Below, one piece after another: positions 6,784 through 23,722 of a stretch of DNA of 64,000 nt. The notes below the pieces were generated by a model that saw only the letters and a program-made list of their open reading frames with translations, did no database searches and had not been told where the DNA came from. Positions within the stretch are counted from its first letter, which is position 1, and each line of letters opens with the position of its first letter. Both the position numbers and the translations under genes were made by a program. Source of the DNA: Actinomadura opuntiae (GTDB lineage: Bacteria > Actinomycetota > Actinomycetes > Streptosporangiales > Streptosporangiaceae); the NCBI RefSeq assembly GCF_030283205.1, contig NZ_JASNWF010000005.1:372001-436000 (forward strand). Reading direction: 5' to 3'.

Positions 6784-9271
6784 CCCTCGCGACACGGTGC
6801 CCGAGCGGCTGCGGGCGCTGCGCGACGCGGCGCGCGAGGGCGAGTCGGTGCTGCCGCTGTACGGGCCGGGCGTCAAGGACGCGTTCGTGGACGGCCTCTA
6901 CCGCCAGCACGATCTCGGCAGCGCGGTGTGGGAGGCGCTGCACGACGCCGGTTACGAGCGCATCGTGTTCTTCTCGCTGGACGCGACGCTGACCGTCCGG
7001 GACGCGGCGTCGCGGCGCCTCCCCGCCGACCCCGAAGCAGAAGACCGATCGGAGAATGACGCGTCGGTGATGCGCCCCGGCTTCAGCGGCCCGCTCGGGC
7101 GCCGCCGCCTGCGCCGCCCGCCCGCCGCGCCGGCGCGGGCGGAGAACCGGGCGATGTCCGGGGCGTTCGCGGTGCGGATGCTGCGGAGCCTGATGCTGGA
7201 CGAGTCGACGCCGACGGCCGTCGTCGTCGAGCAGCTGGAGGTGCTGGAGCGCTGGCAGGAGGCGCGGGCGCCGTTCGCCGCCGCGCTGGAGCGGTGGCTG
7301 GAGTTCCGGCCGGGGAGCCGCAACATCTGCGTGCTGGTGTTCGGCGGGGCGTCGCTGGCGGAGGTCCGCGCGTTCGCCGAGGGCAGCCGCGACCTGCCGG
7401 GGCTCGTGCAGGTGGTGCAGGGCGAGGAGCGGCGTCCGGCGCGTCCCGGCCTGCTGCGCCCGCCCGGCGAGGCGGAGCTGGCGCGGCTCGTGCACCGCCT
7501 CAGGATCCAGAAGAACCTCCAGATAGCGGACTGGACAAGGCTCGCGGGCACGATCCGCGCGATGGCGGCGCAGGACGTCCCGCTGGAGACCTGGGAGCGG
7601 CGGCTCGGCCGGCGGATGGCGGCGGAGGGGACGCCGCTCGGGCAGGAGGAGCTGCACCGGTACGGGTGGATCGCCGGGACGGTCGCGGACGGCGACGTGA
7701 TGCGCCGCCTCGGCGAGCTGGTCGGCCTGGAGCCGGTGAAGCGGCACCTGGAGGGCCTGCGGTACCGGCCGCCCGCCGGCACGGAACCGGTGTCGCACCA
7801 TCTGGTCTTCACCGGCAATCCGGGCACGGGCAAGACGACGGTCGCGCGGATCGTCGGCGACCTGTACCGGGAGCTCGGGATCCTGCGGCACGGTCGGGTC
7901 CGGTCGGTGCGGGCGAGCGACCTGGTGTCGGGGTTCGTCGGGCAGACGGCGACGAAGACCCGCGAAGTGGTCGACGGCGCGCTCGGCGGGGTGCTGTTCG
8001 TCGACGAGGCGTACGAGCTGAGCGACCAGGCGGACGGGTTCGGCCGCGAGGCGATAACCGAGCTGCTCGCCCGGATGGAGGACGACCGCGCCGAACTCGT
8101 GGTGATCGTCGCCGGCTACCCCGACGAGATGCAGGAATTCCTCGACAGCAACCCGGGCCTGCGCAGCCGGTTCCCGCACGAGAACGTCATTGCGTTCCCC
8201 GACTACGAGCCCGCGGAGCTGGCGGAGATCGCGGCACGGCAGCTGCGTCCGATGGGGATGGCGTGGGGCGAGGGGTTCGAGACGGCGCTCGGCGAGGCGA
8301 TCGCGGAGCTGCACCGCACGCGCGGCCGCGGGTTCGGCAACGCGCGCGCCGTCCGGGACGTCACGCAGGAGACGGCCGCGCGCTGGGCGCGGCGCGTGAA
8401 GGACGACCGCGACCGGCCGCTCGAGCCGCGCGACCTGCCCGAACGGCTGCGCCGCGACGCGCGCCCCGTGCCGAAGGACACTGCCGAGCTGCTCGGCGAG
8501 CTGGACGCGATGATCGGGCTGGCGCAGGTGAAGCGGAGCGCGGACGTGCTGGTGAAGCGGCTGCGGCTGCGTCGGCTGCGCGGCCACGGCGAGGTCGTCG
8601 CGCCGAACCTGCTGTTCACCGGCCCGCCCGGCACCGGGAAGACGACGGTGGCGCGGCACTTCGGCCGGATCTTCAAGGAAATGGGGCTGCTGGAGCGCGG
8701 GCACGTCGTGGAGACGGGGCGGTCGCGGCTGGTCGCGTCCTACGTCGGGCAGACCGCGCCGCTGACCCGCAAGGCCGTGGAGCGGGCGCTCGGCGGGGTG
8801 CTGTTCATCGACGAGGCGTACGCGCTGACCGGCGGCGGCGACAACGACTTCGGGCAGGAGGCGATCGACACGCTCGTCGAGGAGATGGAGCGGCATCGCG
8901 GCCGGCTCGCGGTGATCGCGGCGGGCTACCCGGAGCCGATGCGCCGGTTCGTCGCGGCGAACGAGGGGCTCGGCTCCCGGTTCTCCGAAACCATCGAGTT
9001 CCCCGCCTACGAGGTCGACGACCTGCTGGAGATCCTGCGGTCGATGGCGGAACGGCAGCGCTACGAGCTGCATCCCGCGACGCTCCCGGCGGCGCGGGCG
9101 TGGCTGGCGGGCGCGGCGCGGCGGCCCGGGTTCGGCAACGGCCGGACCGTCCGCCGGCTGCTGGAGCGGATGGAGGCGCGGCTCGCCGAACGGGTGGTGG
9201 ACCGCCCGGACGCCGACGCGCGGATGCTGAACCTGCTGCTGCCGGAGGATGTGCCCGATGAACTCGGCTGA
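6773..9271 (+). CDS. Double CbxX/CfqX-type AAA+ ATPase
   Basis: 832 residues. Two AAA+ modules of the CbxX/CfqX (Rubisco-activase-like, SpoVK) type lie in tandem. In the first, Walker A GNPGTGKT is near residue 349 and Walker B GVLFVDEAYE near 406. In the second, GPPGTGKT is near 616 and GVLFIDEAYA near 676. Both carry intact K/T and D-E residues, arginine-containing GLRSRFP / GLGSRFS segments and C-terminal lid regions, so both are probably active. The first 300 residues look like a degenerate NTPase or sensor domain (RIVFFSLDATLTV, VVVEQLEVLERW, NICVLVFGGASL). Such proteins form ring-shaped remodelling machines. The ATG at 6773 overlaps the preceding gene; the next start lies inside its last codons. 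Confidence 0.92.
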   Translation: MSADPRDTVPERLRALRDAAREGESVLPLYGPGVKDAFVDGLYRQHDLGSAVWEALHDAGYERIVFFSLDATLTVRDAASRRLPADPEAEDRSENDASVMRPGFSGPLGRRRLRRPPAAPARAENRAMSGAFAVRMLRSLMLDESTPTAVVVEQLEVLERWQEARAPFAAALERWLEFRPGSRNICVLVFGGASLAEVRAFAEGSRDLPGLVQVVQGEERRPARPGLLRPPGEAELARLVHRLRIQKNLQIADWTRLAGTIRAMAAQDVPLETWERRLGRRMAAEGTPLGQEELHRYGWIAGTVADGDVMRRLGELVGLEPVKRHLEGLRYRPPAGTEPVSHHLVFTGNPGTGKTTVARIVGDLYRELGILRHGRVRSVRASDLVSGFVGQTATKTREVVDGALGGVLFVDEAYELSDQADGFGREAITELLARMEDDRAELVVIVAGYPDEMQEFLDSNPGLRSRFPHENVIAFPDYEPAELAEIAARQLRPMGMAWGEGFETALGEAIAELHRTRGRGFGNARAVRDVTQETAARWARRVKDDRDRPLEPRDLPERLRRDARPVPKDTAELLGELDAMIGLAQVKRSADVLVKRLRLRRLRGHGEVVAPNLLFTGPPGTGKTTVARHFGRIFKEMGLLERGHVVETGRSRLVASYVGQTAPLTRKAVERALGGVLFIDEAYALTGGGDNDFGQEAIDTLVEEMERHRGRLAVIAAGYPEPMRRFVAANEGLGSRFSETIEFPAYEVDDLLEILRSMAERQRYELHPATLPAARAWLAGAARRPGFGNGRTVRRLLERMEARLAERVVDRPDADARMLNLLLPEDVPDELG

Positions 9272-19642: not shown

Positions 19643-20541
19643 GTGGACGATCTCGAGGCGAAGGTTTGGCGCCGTTACGGCCACCTGCGCATCTACGTGT
19701 CACGCGGCGAGCAGAAGGTCGGCTGGTACGACGTTCGCACGGGCCGCCACGAGATCGACCTTCCCGAACTCGCGGCACCGTTCTGGGACGCCGTCCGCAC
19801 CGAATGCCACAACCTCAACGAACCCCCGCCGTCCATACCCGGGCCGCCGCACCTCATCGCGCCGCCGCCCCCGGCCAATCCCGAGTCGGCACTGACCATC
19901 CCGTCGCCCGCAGTCACGGACGAACCTGACGACGATCTGGGACTCAACCGAGCCGGCGCCGCAGCCCAGGCCCGCTCCGACGAGCTGCGCGATTGGCGTG
20001 CATGGCTCGCCGCGATGTTCGGCGCTCGCACGGAGTCCCGTGACTTCGCGGTAGGCGCGAAGGCCGAACGGACCGTGGGCGGCAAGCTCGACAAATGGGC
20101 GCGCAAGCACGGCTGGCACGTCCTGCACGCCGTTCCCGTAGGACGCAACGGCGCGCCGACATCGACCACGTACTGATCGGCCCGTTCGGCGTCGTCACGA
20201 TCAACACCAAGAGCACCCGCGGAAAGGTCTGGGTCGCGGAGAACGGCATGATGGTCGGCGCCACCAAGGTGGACTACCTGCGCAATTCCCGCCACGAGGC
20301 CAAGCGCGCGCGGACACTGCTCGCCACCGCCTGCGGACGCCATGTTCCGGTGCATGCGGTCGTGGTGTTCGTCGGCGCGAAAGACTTCACCGTCCGGAAC
20401 GGCGGCCCGAAAGACGTCACCGTCCTGCCCAACGTGAAGGCCCTCCGCCGCTGGCTACGCCGCCGCGGCCGCGTACTCAGCCCAGAACAGGTCGTCGACG
20501 TACACGCCGCGGCCCGACGACCTAATACTTGGAGGTCATGA
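19643..20541 (+). pseudogene. NERD-domain (nuclease-related) protein, frameshifted
   Basis: Two frames together encode one protein. The first (19643-20176) begins VDDLEAKVWRRYGHLRIYV and ends inside a NERD domain with AERTVGGKLDKWARKHGWHVLHAVPVGRNG. The second continues from about 20150 with ADIDHVLIGPFGVVTINTKST and KVWV, the conserved D-H-v-l-i-g-p and T-K core. A one-base loss (or two-base gain) near 20148-20153 separates them. NERD domains are restriction-endonuclease-like and occur in defence or DNA-processing proteins. The GTG start is preceded by AGGGGAC. Without the frameshift the protein would have about 299 residues. It lies beside the repeat-flanked HNH unit. Confidence 0.8.
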
Positions 20542-20641
20542 ACGATGCGTTGATGAAGCTTGATTGTGCGGGAAGTCGTCATCAGGTCTGCTCGTTTGTT
20601 CGTGCGGGGTGTAATGGTCGTGCGTGTGACGATGTTCATGT

Positions 20642-20701
20642 GATGGGTCTCCGCGTGATGGGTGCGCGTGAGATTGGCGTTCGCGAGATGGGTGTTCGTG
20701 T
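20642..20701. repeat. Four degenerate 15-nt tandem repeats
   Basis: Units start at 20642, 20657, 20672 and 20687 and follow the pattern GATGGGTGTTCGCGT with changes. They end at the outer edge of the first copy of the cloverleaf repeat. Read on the + strand they would encode a five-residue repeat, but the surrounding frame is not convincing as a gene. Confidence 0.7.
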
Positions 20702-20897
20702 CATAGGTGGTGGGGTTGGCCGTGCGGTGGGGTGGCGCTGGCGTACGGGGCCGCCCCTCCAAAGTCAAGGGCGCCTTCGGCGTCGCTTCGCGATGGACTT
20801 CGTCCACCCTTGACTTTGGAGCCTCTGCGGCCCCTGAGGCAGCGCCAAGGGGCAGGCTCCGCCTGCCCCGCCCGGGTCGCGCCACCCCACCGCCCCC
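20690..20897 (+). repeat. Cloverleaf repeat, copy A
   Basis: A ~208-nt sequence present again in reverse orientation at 23261-23469 with only about four differences. Its core at 20757-20821 is a 15-bp stem CTCCAAAGTCAAGGG / CCCTTGACTTTGGAG closing three abutting hairpins with no unpaired bases between them: CGCC-TTC-GGCG (20772-20782), TCGC-TTC-GCGA (20783-20793) and TGGAC-TTC-GTCCA (20794-20806). A 9-bp hairpin GGGGCAGGC-TCC-GCCTGCCCC follows (20849-20869), and an outer 13-bp stem GGTGGGGTGGCGC / GCGCCACCCCACC (20726-20738 with 20879-20891) encloses everything. It has no convincing coding potential. Confidence 0.92.
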
Positions 20898-21047
20898 ATC
20901 CGTACGCGTGCTCGACAAAGCGCCCCAAAGGAACAATTCGCCGACCAGGTAAAGGCGGAGGAAGCCGGGGCGCACTGAGCAATATTTTTCCACTGATCAG
21001 CAAAGAAGAAGCCCCCCTCTCGGCGCGCAATTGTCGGTCACTTGGGG

Positions 21048-21053
21048 TACACT
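21048..21053 (+). promoter_or_regulatory. Probable -10 element for a leaderless HNH transcript
   Basis: TACACT lies 6 nt before the ATG at 21060, in an AT-richer pocket, and no ribosome site precedes that ATG. This arrangement is typical of leaderless actinobacterial mRNAs. A matching -35 is not clear. Confidence 0.45.
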
Positions 21054-21059
21054 TTAGGT

Positions 21060-22334
21060 ATGCAGTCAGTGACGGTCGACCTTGCGGGCGCGTCCACCAT
21101 GGAATTGGTGAACGCGCTCTCAACGATCGCCACTGAACTCGCCCAGCGAGAGGCTCCGGAATCGGCGGCCGCGTGCCTGGAACTCACCGAAGACCTGGCC
21201 GCCGCCTGCGATCTGCAAGAAAGCGCACTGGCCGGTTTCATCGGCCGCGTCGACGCCACCGGCGAACAACAACGCTGGGGGTTTCCTTCCACGCGGGCGT
21301 GGCTGCGGTCGAGGCTGGGGATGCGCGAGAACCGCGCCAAGGAGCGCCTCGTGTTGGCGCGGCAGCGGCATCGCCTGCCGCAGGTGACCGAGCGGCTCAT
21401 CTCCGGGGAGCTGTCCTACGGCTACGCCGCCACCATCAGCGACTCGGTGGCCCGCTTGGACGAGGAGGAGTGCGCCGAGGCCGAACGGACCCTGCTGGGT
21501 TTCGTCGACCAGGGCTTCTCACCAGGGAAAGTCGGAGTGTTCGGCAATCGCATCCGCGATGTGATCGCCGAGAACAACGGCACCGACCGCGAACCCGAGG
21601 AAGCCAAGCGCGGCTACGCCAAGTCCTGGATCACCAGCACCGGCTCGCTGGACGGCGGCCGCTACATCAAAGGCTGGCTGAACGCCGAAGACGCCGCCAT
21701 CTGGGACGGCACACTCGCTCCGCTGGCCAAGCCGGCCGGGCCCGAGGACCACCGCGATGTCGCCGAGCGGACGGCGGCGGCGCTGTCGAGTGTGCTGTCG
21801 GGCGGACACAAGGCCACCAAGGTCACCGTCATCTGCGACCTGGAAACCCTCACCGGCGGCAACGCCCCGGGCCATCTCATCGACGGGACGCCGATCCCGG
21901 CCGAGCAGGTACGCCGCATCGCCCTGGCGGCCGGAGTCTCACCCCTGATCCTGGGACGCGGCCACAACCCCCTGTACCTGGGATATCGGGAACGGTTCGC
22001 CAGCCCCGCCCAACGCCGGGTCCTGGAAACCCTCTACCCGACCTGCGCGGTGCGCGAGTGCGAGATCCCGGGGACGTTGTGCGAGGTCGACCACGTCCAC
22101 GGCTGGGCCCTCGGCCGCAGCCCCACCGACATCGATCAGCTCACGCTCACCTGCGGGTGGCACAACCGCTTCAAACACAGCAGCCCACGCCAGATCGGCA
22201 TCAGCAAAGATCCCGACGGGCGGTATGTGTACCGGCTACTGCCACCACCCGACGCCAGATCAAGAACCAAACTCGGGAGCGGACCGCCGGGCGCACTCGG
22301 CCCACCCGATCCCGCCATCACCTGGGCCGCATAA
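21060..22334 (+). CDS. DUF222 / 13E12-family HNH endonuclease
   Basis: 424 residues. The N-terminal two thirds is the DUF222 (13E12 repeat-family) domain, including SALAGFIGRVDATGEQQRWGF and ERLISGELSYGYAATIS. The C-terminal HNH nuclease is clear: CEVDHVHGWALG (first His), then LTLTCGWHNRFKH (Asn/His). These proteins are multicopy in actinobacteria and associated with repetitive, mobile-like DNA. Here it sits between two inverted cloverleaf repeats together with a methyltransferase on the opposite strand. It is probably a DNA-cutting enzyme; whether it moves the flanking repeats is inference. Confidence 0.93.
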   Translation: MQSVTVDLAGASTMELVNALSTIATELAQREAPESAAACLELTEDLAAACDLQESALAGFIGRVDATGEQQRWGFPSTRAWLRSRLGMRENRAKERLVLARQRHRLPQVTERLISGELSYGYAATISDSVARLDEEECAEAERTLLGFVDQGFSPGKVGVFGNRIRDVIAENNGTDREPEEAKRGYAKSWITSTGSLDGGRYIKGWLNAEDAAIWDGTLAPLAKPAGPEDHRDVAERTAAALSSVLSGGHKATKVTVICDLETLTGGNAPGHLIDGTPIPAEQVRRIALAAGVSPLILGRGHNPLYLGYRERFASPAQRRVLETLYPTCAVRECEIPGTLCEVDHVHGWALGRSPTDIDQLTLTCGWHNRFKHSSPRQIGISKDPDGRYVYRLLPPPDARSRTKLGSGPPGALGPPDPAITWAA

Positions 22335-22444
22335 CCAGTCGGCCACTCCCCACAGCACCGGCTCGCCCGGGTCCCCCTGGATCACGGGCGGGTCGGCATG
22401 CCCGCGTCAGTTCTCCCGGGAGAAGGAGAGATGAGCGAGCTGGA

Positions 22445-23227
22445 TCAGGCGGCGGCTTTGAGACGGAAGTTGAGGTCGGAGGCACTCGCGGGAGCAGGGG
22501 CTCCGTGGGCATCGGTAACGGCAGTAACAACCAGTCCCGCAGCCGCAGCAAGTGCCTGAAAATCGGACCTGGAGTACCAGTGCAGAATCCAGGGGCGCTC
22601 CTCCACTGAGTGGTCCTCGCCGTGGTGGCGCTCGTAGCGCAGCAGTGCCGTCTGGGTCCGCGCGGCCTCGTCACGCTCCTCGGCAAGGACGGACACCCGG
22701 AGCTCGGCGCCGTCCGGGCCGACCGCCGTGCGCACCCGGCCTATCTCCTCAAGCCGCGTCAGCGTGGGGACGAACAGGGGCACCAGGGCAGTGCCGTCCT
22801 CGGCAAGGTGGGCGCGGATGCCACGCAGCGAGGCCAGTGCGGCGTCGTCGTCGGGAAGGAGGGTGAAGGTCGGCCCGGCCAGAAAGATCGCCCGATAACG
22901 ACGCGACAGCTTCAACGACTCCATGCGCTGGTGGAAAACGGTGGCACGAACCCCGTATTCGCGTGCCCGGCGGCCAAGCCGGTCCAGCATGTCAGCCGAG
23001 GAGTCGACCCCGTCGACCTCCAGGCCGCGTCGGCACAGCTCAAGTAAGGGATCGCCATCTCCACAGCCCAGCTCTAACGCCGGACCTCCGGCTTCCTTTA
23101 TGAAGGCCGCGTACGGCCCGGGCTCCGGAGAGAATGCCCTCAGCGGTCGGTACAGCTCCGCGACGATGCCCGTGTAGAAATCGGCGGGGTCCAAGTCCGT
23201 CGTGCTTGTCAGAGCCTCTCCTTGCAT
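22445..23227 (-). CDS. Class I SAM-dependent methyltransferase
   Basis: 260 residues. Motif I is ALELGCGDGDPLLEL, followed by VDGVDSSADMLDRLGRRA, YRAIFLAGPTFTLLPDDDAAL and a C-terminal HWYSRSDFQALAAAAGL. This is the small-molecule class I methyltransferase pattern; I see no DNA-methylase catalytic motif (no NPPY or PC pair). The ATG at 23227 has GGGAG eight bases upstream, and the inverted repeat copy B begins only 34 bp further upstream. It is convergent with the HNH gene. Because both genes are enclosed by the repeats, it may be cargo rather than a functional partner. Confidence 0.88.
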   Translation of the reverse strand: MQGEALTSTTDLDPADFYTGIVAELYRPLRAFSPEPGPYAAFIKEAGGPALELGCGDGDPLLELCRRGLEVDGVDSSADMLDRLGRRAREYGVRATVFHQRMESLKLSRRYRAIFLAGPTFTLLPDDDAALASLRGIRAHLAEDGTALVPLFVPTLTRLEEIGRVRTAVGPDGAELRVSVLAEERDEAARTQTALLRYERHHGEDHSVEERPWILHWYSRSDFQALAAAAGLVVTAVTDAHGAPAPASASDLNFRLKAAA

Positions 23228-23260
23228 CACTCTCGCTCCCAGGTCTTGGTCCTCTGGTTC

Positions 23261-23469
23261 GGGGGCGGTGGGGTGGCGCGACCCGGGCGGGGCAGGCGGA
23301 GCCTGCCCCTTTGGCGCTGCCTCAGGGGCCGCAGAGGCTCCAAAGTCAAGGGTGGACGAAGTCCATCGCGAAGCGACGCCGAAGGCGCCCTTGACTTTGG
23401 AGGGGCGGCCCCGTACGCCAGCGCCACCCCACCGCACGGCCAACCCCTCCGCCTATGACACGAACACCC
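23261..23469 (-). repeat. Cloverleaf repeat, copy B (inverted)
   Basis: Reverse complement of copy A. The core at 23338-23402 again has the 15-bp closing stem and three spacer-free hairpins, now with GAA loops on the + strand: TGGAC-GAA-GTCCA, TCGC-GAA-GCGA, CGCC-GAA-GGCG. All core bases are identical to copy A; differences are an extra A near the CCAAAGGGG segment and three changes near the outer end. It lies in the promoter side of the methyltransferase gene. Confidence 0.92.
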
Positions 23470-23722
23470 TTCTGCCCGCATTACGCATGCCCACTCCCGC
23501 TGCCCGAACACTGCACACCCCACCAGCACAGAAGCGCACCCAGAACGCCATGCACGACGTCCACCGCCATGCATCCGCCGCCATGACGGCCCCCGGGAAT
23601 GTGACACCACAGCACCACCAACGCCACGAAGAAGACCTGGAGCGCAACCAGGGCAAGCGCACGAGAACAGCTCCCGGCTCAACAACCGGAGCAGCCCAGG
23701 TCAACGAACCGAGACGGCAGCC
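23470..23722. other. Intergenic, no gene seen
   Basis: This lower-GC stretch after copy B has short open frames on both strands but no ribosome site, conserved motif or strong hairpin. It may be the outer flank of the repeat-bounded unit. No target-site duplication matching the flank of copy A is visible. Confidence 0.5.

Follow-up and report, generated by a model that had tools for sequence, protein, structure and literature searches.

What do two inverted, cloverleaf-forming repeats do at the two ends of a small group of genes in an actinobacterial chromosome? The question is raised by a 64-kb stretch of the Actinomadura opuntiae genome (hereafter the window; the whole genome measures 10.5 Mb in 62 contigs), in which a gene for a DUF222-HNH protein and a methyltransferase gene lie between two inverted arms, each of which carries a 65-nucleotide core that can fold into a four-helix cloverleaf. 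The answer that we favor, with about even confidence, is that the arms are a conserved actinobacterial DNA element whose folded strand marks the ends of inverted-repeat cassettes. As judged from aligned sequences, the fold has been kept by compensatory change across genera, and GNA loops are confined to one of the two strands. Frequently the element is found in convergent inverted pairs with one to a few genes between them, in Actinomadura the DUF222-HNH gene.

Structure of the arms and selection for the fold

The left arm (20686-20897, + strand, 208-212 nucleotides) and the right arm (23261-23473, - strand) were delimited by inverted-repeat comparison. Segments 20686-20852 and 23307-23473 (167 nucleotides) are 98% complementary, and segments 20847-20897 and 23261-23311 (51 nucleotides) are 100% complementary. 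The left core (20757-20821, + strand), which was defined by sequence, folds, and covariation, is identical to the right core (23338-23402, - strand). Its 15-bp stem (20757-20771/20807-20821) encloses three hairpins of 4, 4, and 5 bp, namely CGCC-TTC-GGCG (20772-20782), TCGC-TTC-GCGA (20783-20793), and TGGAC-TTC-GTCCA (20794-20806). All three loops have three bases, there is no unpaired spacer, and all non-loop bases are paired. The core is surrounded by a middle 8-bp stem formed by GGGGCCGC (20747-20754) and GCGGCCCC (20827-20834), which was seen in the sequence and the DNA fold, and by an outer closing stem of 15 bp (20724-20738/20879-20893). A 9-bp hairpin at 20849-20869, apparent from both the inverted-repeat comparison and the DNA fold, has the loop TCC, or GGA on the opposite strand. 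The outer stem and this hairpin are present in the folds of both strands.

Such a structure is not expected by chance. DNA folding of 20710-20897 gave -75.5 kcal/mol (z -9.6) for the + strand and -76.6 kcal/mol (z -8.4) for the - strand, and in each case 0 of 200 shuffles reached as low an energy. A four-helix cloverleaf detector found two cores in the window, each with a score of 19; of 12 dinucleotide-shuffled windows, 11 had no match and one had a match at score 1. A preliminary description of the locus, made from the sequence alone, had reported inverted arms of ~208 nucleotides with this core and had called them far beyond chance. Complementarity, pairing, folds, and detector bear out the first statement, and the shuffles of the fold and of the window bear out the second.

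Is the fold itself under selection? Among sequences picked by BLAST, by model search, or by the complementarity-requiring detector, a choice that biases the comparison, 26 sequences showed changes on both sides in 15 of 28 base pairs, with 93.6% of the cells paired compared with 34-48% for slid partners, and 23 shorter sequences showed such changes in 8 of 21 pairs, with 94.8% paired compared with 31-49%. Among the BLAST loci L070-L079, L079 failed the detector and the match of L078 lay outside the core; L165 passed at a lower threshold only. Locus L072 displays at 1669-1733 a second perfect cloverleaf of the same geometry and unrelated sequence, ~110 bp from its normal core. In 19 loci (one per genome), identity to the window copy was 96.7% in the core compared with 88.7% in the remaining arm. 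Within the genus, A-T and G-C pairs are exchanged in the outer stem, and hairpins 1 and 3 change in length on both sides.

The loops follow a rule of their own. They were counted in better-strand matches to R2, a 51-position covariance model of the core, after most repeats of one sequence had been dropped, which gave 82 distinct cores, two of them unparsed. There were 240 loops, of which 213 had three bases; 205 of these 213 read TNC on the top strand, which is GNA on the lower strand, and none read GNA on top, a count biased somewhat by the training of R2 on TNC-rich cores. The variable base of the TNC loops was T in 106, A in 40, G in 40, and C in 19. Mismatches in the closing arms were A.C on top (G.T below) in seven cases, G.T on top in two, and of other kinds in 22; these wobble mismatches point to the lower strand weakly at most. 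GNA or GNNA loops with any N, closed by at least two G-C pairs, are described as extraordinarily stable DNA mini-hairpins in the available part of the source (PMC4686876). The likeliest selected form, judging from these patterns, is the lower strand as single-stranded DNA, the alternative being RNA of the lower strand. The selection for a folded structure suggested earlier is thus upheld by the compensatory changes in the stems, where pairing lies far above that of slid partners, together with the loop rule. To our knowledge, natural conserved cloverleafs that are apparently selected as DNA and kept by compensatory mutation are hardly known.

Under the RNA alternative, the element would terminate transcription in both directions or insulate the foreign genes that it surrounds, or it would stabilize transcripts. 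The RNA fold of the lower strand is indeed very stable (-130.2 kcal/mol, z -7.6), and the arms face inward around genes. However, the loops obey the DNA GNA rule, with GNRA on the lower strand in one of the 240 and UUCG on the upper strand in none, and the element lies upstream of the HNH gene, not at its end. Rfam searches also gave no match to the window arms, with all four sub-threshold matches lying elsewhere, or to the cores from 8 further loci, where the single sub-threshold match fell outside the core, in L304. An action as RNA is, on this evidence, a slim prospect.

DUF222-HNH units in Actinomadura

The preliminary description had placed an HNH endonuclease gene and a methyltransferase gene between the arms, and both assignments hold. 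The leader from the arm to the HNH gene (20898-21059, + strand) is similar in most paralogs and ends ..GGTACACTTTAGGT-ATG. The HNH gene (21060-22334, + strand) encodes 424 amino acids from the ATG at 21060, as defined by frame, Pfam, and motif. Its protein matches DUF222 (PF02720, E 5e-24) with 85.6 bits against a Pfam cut-off of 24.4. The HNH label comes from the C-terminal motif E-D-H...C..HN..K, which we take to be an HNH motif; the Pfam HNH model matched a C-terminal fragment with an E of only 0.097, and the AlphaFold model was poor overall (pLDDT 56), with a strand-strand-helix predicted at 342-374. A 3' segment (22335-22402, + strand) with a terminator-like hairpin at about 22358-22397 follows. 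Next comes the cargo, a Methyltransf_25 gene (22445-23227, - strand; library scan) that reads inward from the right arm. There is no transposase gene in the window unit. Beside the unit, two overlapping frames (19643-20176 and 20095-20541) look like one frameshift-split gene, and degenerate G-rich repeats with GGGTGTTCG lie directly outside the arms of several units, for example at 20600-20710 of the window.

The unit is one of many. At least 38 arm matches are present in the A. opuntiae genome, a lower bound from scoring 40 of 123 candidates, and repeats of the core run throughout this and related genomes. The HNH protein has 17 matches in the genome, all free of internal stops, and the other 16 paralogs are 78-96% identical to the window protein (tblastn). 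At 17 of 17 loci, an arm lies upstream of the HNH gene, in most cases with ~163 bases between arm and start codon; one of these arms is truncated at the end of its contig. An inverted arm lies downstream at 15 of 17, although three of the 15 are without the core and one is cut by a contig end; the other two loci (L045 and L046) have no downstream arm inside 2.1 and 2.3 kb of sequence. At L036, an insertion sequence, presumably IS5-like, separates arm and HNH gene; it encodes a DDE-type protein and has ACTGAGC at both ends.

What is shared by the units besides arms and HNH gene? The methyltransferase gene is confined to the window unit among the units of this genome, and it was rejected as a component of the element on that ground; A. 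violacea has a homolog (74%) at its syntenic site, where it lies 2.2 kb downstream from the HNH gene. In contrast, ~100 bp after the HNH gene, including the terminator-like hairpin, are common to 14 of the 15 paired units (not L034). Nine paired units (L031, L033, L035-L040, and L042) also share a cargo of some hundred bp, which follows the HNH gene, extends no further than the downstream arm, and has no good reading frame; a 76-residue frame in it, guessed to be a decayed transposase, had no match in Pfam, NCBIfam, or plasmids. The common 3' stretch and the common cargo suggest that whole units were copied.

A search for relatives of the HNH protein gave 159 confirmed loci, of which 80 were used; these, all from Actinomadura, make 97 loci together with the 17 of A. 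opuntiae. A recognized arm in the wrong orientation occurs in 0 of 97; in other words, the arms face inward. Together with the 15 paired loci of A. opuntiae and with pairs in another family described below, this agrees with the suggestion that inverted pairs form the ends of repeated units. Among 70 relatives' loci with enough sequence, the upstream arm was recognized in 52, the downstream arm in 30, and both in 22. At the level of genomes, 31 of 59 relatives (35 of the 59 from the same genus) had an arm or core match.

Some arms have lost the core or never had it. Positions 65-159 are absent from the left arms of L040 and L041, the right arm of L042, and L230 in a relative, with a common junction between GGGGCCG and GGGGCAG; in A. 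opuntiae these arms lie on the side away from the HNH gene. Such arms could be either slippage deletions at the hairpin or a form without an inserted core. In five other loci (L356, L357, and L359 of genome G002; L360, the same as L153, of A. meyerae; and L096), an insertion sequence that we assume to be IS4-like sits at one fixed place in the cloverleaf core. It measures 1574-1580 bp where measured, has frames of 424-434 codons, has the ends TCAATGCC[AG]CTTAG, and duplicates the 8 bp CCCTTGAC in the 3' arm. It looks like an element that targets the cloverleaf. L358 agrees with it by coordinates only.

The HNH copies appear to evolve in concert. In a protein tree of the 97 sequences, grouping was by genome and not by site, with 26 genome-label changes for 15 groups compared with a shuffled mean of 62.0 (0 of 200 as low). 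The 17 copies of A. opuntiae (support only 37), 12 of A. nitritigenes (96), and 9 of A. meyerae (99) needed one change each. Others were scattered: the 12 copies of A. violacea needed three changes, the 10 of A. montaniterrae four, and the 8 of A. physcomitrii four, and nine genomes with two or three copies were ungrouped. HNH genes at shared sites are closer to paralogs of their own genome than to their counterparts in sister species. The genome-wise grouping and the shared sites fit gene conversion among the paralogs, the alternative being re-insertion at hotspots. In Mycobacterium tuberculosis, REP13E12 loci undergo frequent gene conversion and are hotspots of it, according to the part of that account available (PMC13061034), and REP13E12, HNH endonuclease, and DUF222 are named together in a second source, likewise available in part (PMC10589994).

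One model suggested by these findings is that the DUF222-HNH protein acts on the cloverleaf in the form of a cruciform four-way junction, and that by nicking this substrate it spreads or converts the units. The constant neighborhood of HNH gene and arm in A. opuntiae, mostly at one fixed distance, speaks for it, as do the homogenized paralogs, the REP13E12 parallel, and the motif residues, which are invariant in 97 of 97 sequences. On the other hand, 18 of the 70 relatives' loci have no recognizable upstream arm (diverged arms may be missed), and cloverleafs occur in genomes without any DUF222 match, as described below. As a general explanation this is improbable. Inside Actinomadura alone, the HNH protein may drive conversion.

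Are the units insertions? For 12 of 15 units of A. opuntiae, one or both flanks correspond, over more than 200 bp, to sequence flanking an HNH locus of another Actinomadura species, and the flanks adjoining the units are variable. Among 30 loci matching the right flank of L036, six (A. opuntiae included) have an HNH gene or arm within 1.5 kb and 24 do not. In three of these 24 (L204, L213, and L225), the conserved flanks of this site are ~25-57 bp apart, compared with ~5.4-5.5 kb in A. opuntiae. Likewise, of 30 loci matching the left flank of L043, the five with HNH are A. opuntiae and the four best-matching relatives. The empty sites anticipated in the preliminary description were thus found in relatives. 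On this evidence, the units are insertions of some age at particular places, with an inserted stretch larger than the box from arm to arm. Base-exact ends at empty sites were not reached. A comparison of 60 relatives with the flank of a box from G476, a genome of another family described below, yielded matches that were partial and weak throughout. Two shared sites (L033/L097 and L034/L084) carry the HNH gene in opposite orientations with respect to the flank.

The cloverleaf beyond the HNH gene

A first, 65-position model (R1) matched 19 of 296 genomes of the phylum, many weakly. R2 matched 102 of 394 genomes of the class, in 35 of 137 genera, at E up to 0.001 a genome. In the window itself, R2 has a weak match at 1824-1880 (20.1 bits, E 0.008), probably by chance. 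Beyond the genus, the surroundings of the core diverge in sequence, and the common part is GTCAAGGG, three hairpins, and CCCTTGAC.

This conservation bears on the idea of a passive structural hotspot, at which palindromes break or stall forks, repeats are homogenized, and flanks are scrambled with no dedicated recognition. The variable flanks would fit, and so would the core-less arms, whose single junction lies between short direct repeats as in hairpin slippage. Yet for GTCAAGGG, CCCTTGAC, and the loop pattern, conservation extends beyond pairing to the sequence itself, and the element is present in about a quarter of the genomes just given. Passive behavior is, for these reasons, a distant candidate.

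Is the HNH protein the general partner of the cloverleaf? Genomes with cloverleafs and without a DUF222 match include G008, G028, G037, G045, and G183, as well as G476, G626, G466, G717, G696, and G582; G169 is without DUF222 too, but its model matches are weak. The HNH protein was rejected as a universal partner on this evidence, and its link to the cloverleaf is a local association and not the general function. The preliminary description had proposed a recognition site for the HNH protein and a link to HNH genes. The link stands in Actinomadura and fails elsewhere, and the recognition site does not hold as a general rule, since cloverleafs occur without a DUF222 match and inverted pairs surround unrelated genes.

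Those unrelated genes are best seen in G476, a genome of a different family with no DUF222 and no Y1 match. It has ~25 copies of a 380-nucleotide arm, which resembles the Actinomadura arm in the core. The copies form 12 convergent pairs, 1.2-3.9 kb apart, and two long copies (C2:107741 and C2:310444) are unpaired. Ten boxes were opened, in which 26 frames were listed and 18 scanned. The box genes encode CYTH; NmrA-like and APH; GntR-UTRA (two); NUDIX; and a helix-turn-helix protein. A HAD hydrolase occurs in two boxes, one of which also has an NsdA-family protein and the other a GNAT. Box L289 has a GDSL/GGACT protein and a DDE_5 transposase. The remaining scanned frames had no family over the cut-off. 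Shorter convergent pairs are present in G479 and G717. The convergent arrangement is frequent but not universal.

Y1 (RAYT) transposases matched 2 of 13 cloverleaf carriers (G375 and G633) and 5 of 13 genomes without an R2 match; none was found in the A. opuntiae genome, G476, G479, G626, or G466. RAYT was rejected as the enzyme for the cloverleaf on account of its absence from the repeat-rich genomes of A. opuntiae and G476. A phage origin was also rejected, as 50,697 phage records had no arm match and the strict core pattern was absent from viral contigs.

Plasmids carry the element in 24 of 72,556 records (BLAST), and the HNH protein had no match in the same records at 1e-10. In Kocuria pCE7, the core lies between a TraM-recognition gene and ardC; other plasmid cores lie before mobF, by rep, and on a MOBF plasmid. 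These positions make a serious rival of the model in which the element serves as a promoter or priming site on single-stranded DNA (like Frpo of the F plasmid, or like a lagging-strand origin), was spread by conjugative plasmids, and allows expression or copying of the gene behind it on single-strand entry into a cell. In 14 plasmid contexts opened (one unannotated), the next listed gene was in the top-strand direction in 9 of 13, a number too small for significance and taken from an incomplete gene table. The conserved arm also has TTGAC, and the HNH genes read inward from the upstream arm. Single-strand promoters do exist in leading regions, as stated in the available part of the source (PMC11541004). 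However, no -10-like motif was noticed by eye 16-18 nucleotides beyond the window arm, the HNH gene has its own leader, and long inverted arms of near-identical sequence are more than a promoter needs. We therefore judge this role unlikely.

A possible mechanism and its meaning

How might the arms mark a cassette? The lower strand, 5'-GTCAAGGG, three hairpins with C(GNA)G loops, CCCTTGAC-3', would fold into the four-helix cloverleaf when single. A trans-acting protein encoded outside the unit would recognize the folded strand while the DNA is single-stranded, as in replication, conjugation, or repair. Recognition at both arms would let the box be inverted, copied, or exchanged. The Actinomadura HNH nuclease, which cannot be the general partner, may be a long-term resident that spreads its own sequence by cut-and-repair gene conversion. 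Taken further, this would mean a new cassette class with GNA-cloverleaf ends, in which a host or plasmid recombinase that reads the fold captures, inverts, and moves accessory genes one at a time and the Actinomadura DUF222-HNH units are a self-homogenizing lineage. This extension is tentative and rather doubtful, and it was rated slightly lower after no target duplication was found.

Several observations weigh against the marking of cassette ends. The arrangement can differ: L298 has one divergent pair and two direct neighbors, L299 has three direct copies, and plasmid copies are mostly single, not inverted pairs. (L298 also carries an ArdC-type anti-restriction gene, at 6835-7725, among its four cloverleaf copies.) Only 52 of the 70 relatives' HNH loci have a recognizable upstream arm, and 30 a downstream one. 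Many weak R1 matches are unsure, and 5 of 23 opened outside the A. opuntiae genome pass the perfect-cloverleaf detector. The two arms of a unit do not clearly stand out as nearest relatives: identity in A. opuntiae is 86.1% within units compared with 83.1% between, and the best partner was the other arm of the unit in 0 of 13; in G476 it is 89.4% compared with 80.8%, and the best partner was the other arm in 3 of 11. No shared recombinase was found, and Y1 transposases are absent from both genomes. An RNA role would favor stable hairpins too. Finally, the mobile unit proposed in the preliminary description stays putative. Direct repeats in the 40 bases outside the units were no longer than with mismatched flanks in 13 units of A. 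opuntiae (longest repeats 4.7 compared with 4.6 bases) and in 14 units elsewhere (5.3 compared with 5.2), although the outer ends are ragged and an old target duplication could be lost; where an empty site is resolved best, the missing ~5.4-5.5 kb do not run from arm to arm.

Among known systems, the REP13E12 (13E12, DUF222-HNH) repeats of M. tuberculosis are likewise multi-copy with frequent gene conversion, but the available part of the source (PMC13061034) mentions no cloverleaf arms, whereas here each A. opuntiae copy is preceded by an arm and most are also followed by an inverted one. Frpo-type promoters share a folded single strand near leading-region genes in the plasmid cases (PMC11541004, in part), but here no -10-like motif was noticed and there are chromosomal inverted pairs. 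REP/BIME repeats with RAYT (Y1) are short conserved palindromes, often in inverted pairs; here the structure is a four-helix cloverleaf and not one hairpin, Y1 is lacking in the two repeat-rich genomes, and the arms bound genes. REP is an insertion-sequence target, and the cloverleaf likewise holds an insertion sequence. Integron cassettes with attC are accessory single genes beside imperfect palindromes, and attC sites act as folded single strands; unlike them, the arms described here are inverted, not direct, and have another structure. Miniature inverted-repeat transposable elements and transposons with long terminal inverted repeats also bound 1-4 kb of cargo with inverted repeats and recur in a genome, but the units read here have no common transposase and no target duplication over control, and the arms share the core alone between lineages. 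Streptomyces telomere palindromes and parvovirus terminal hairpins likewise have a long stem that bears small hairpins, each with a loop of three bases; the cloverleafs, in contrast, are internal to contigs in the loci read. No description of such an element was found in the literature, as judged from titles and listings in a coverage outside which most subscription journals lie. The arms are structured palindromic repeats of a new variety, and a new cassette class needs proof of movement.

The comparisons suggest a widespread DNA signal across many related bacteria, around quite different genes. An element of 51-65 nucleotides that is present in about a quarter of the sampled genomes of the class should have a binding protein. 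The cloverleaf would also open to test how copies within the DUF222-HNH (13E12) repeat family stay alike, and whether actinobacteria have single genes that travel in boxes without a transposase of their own.

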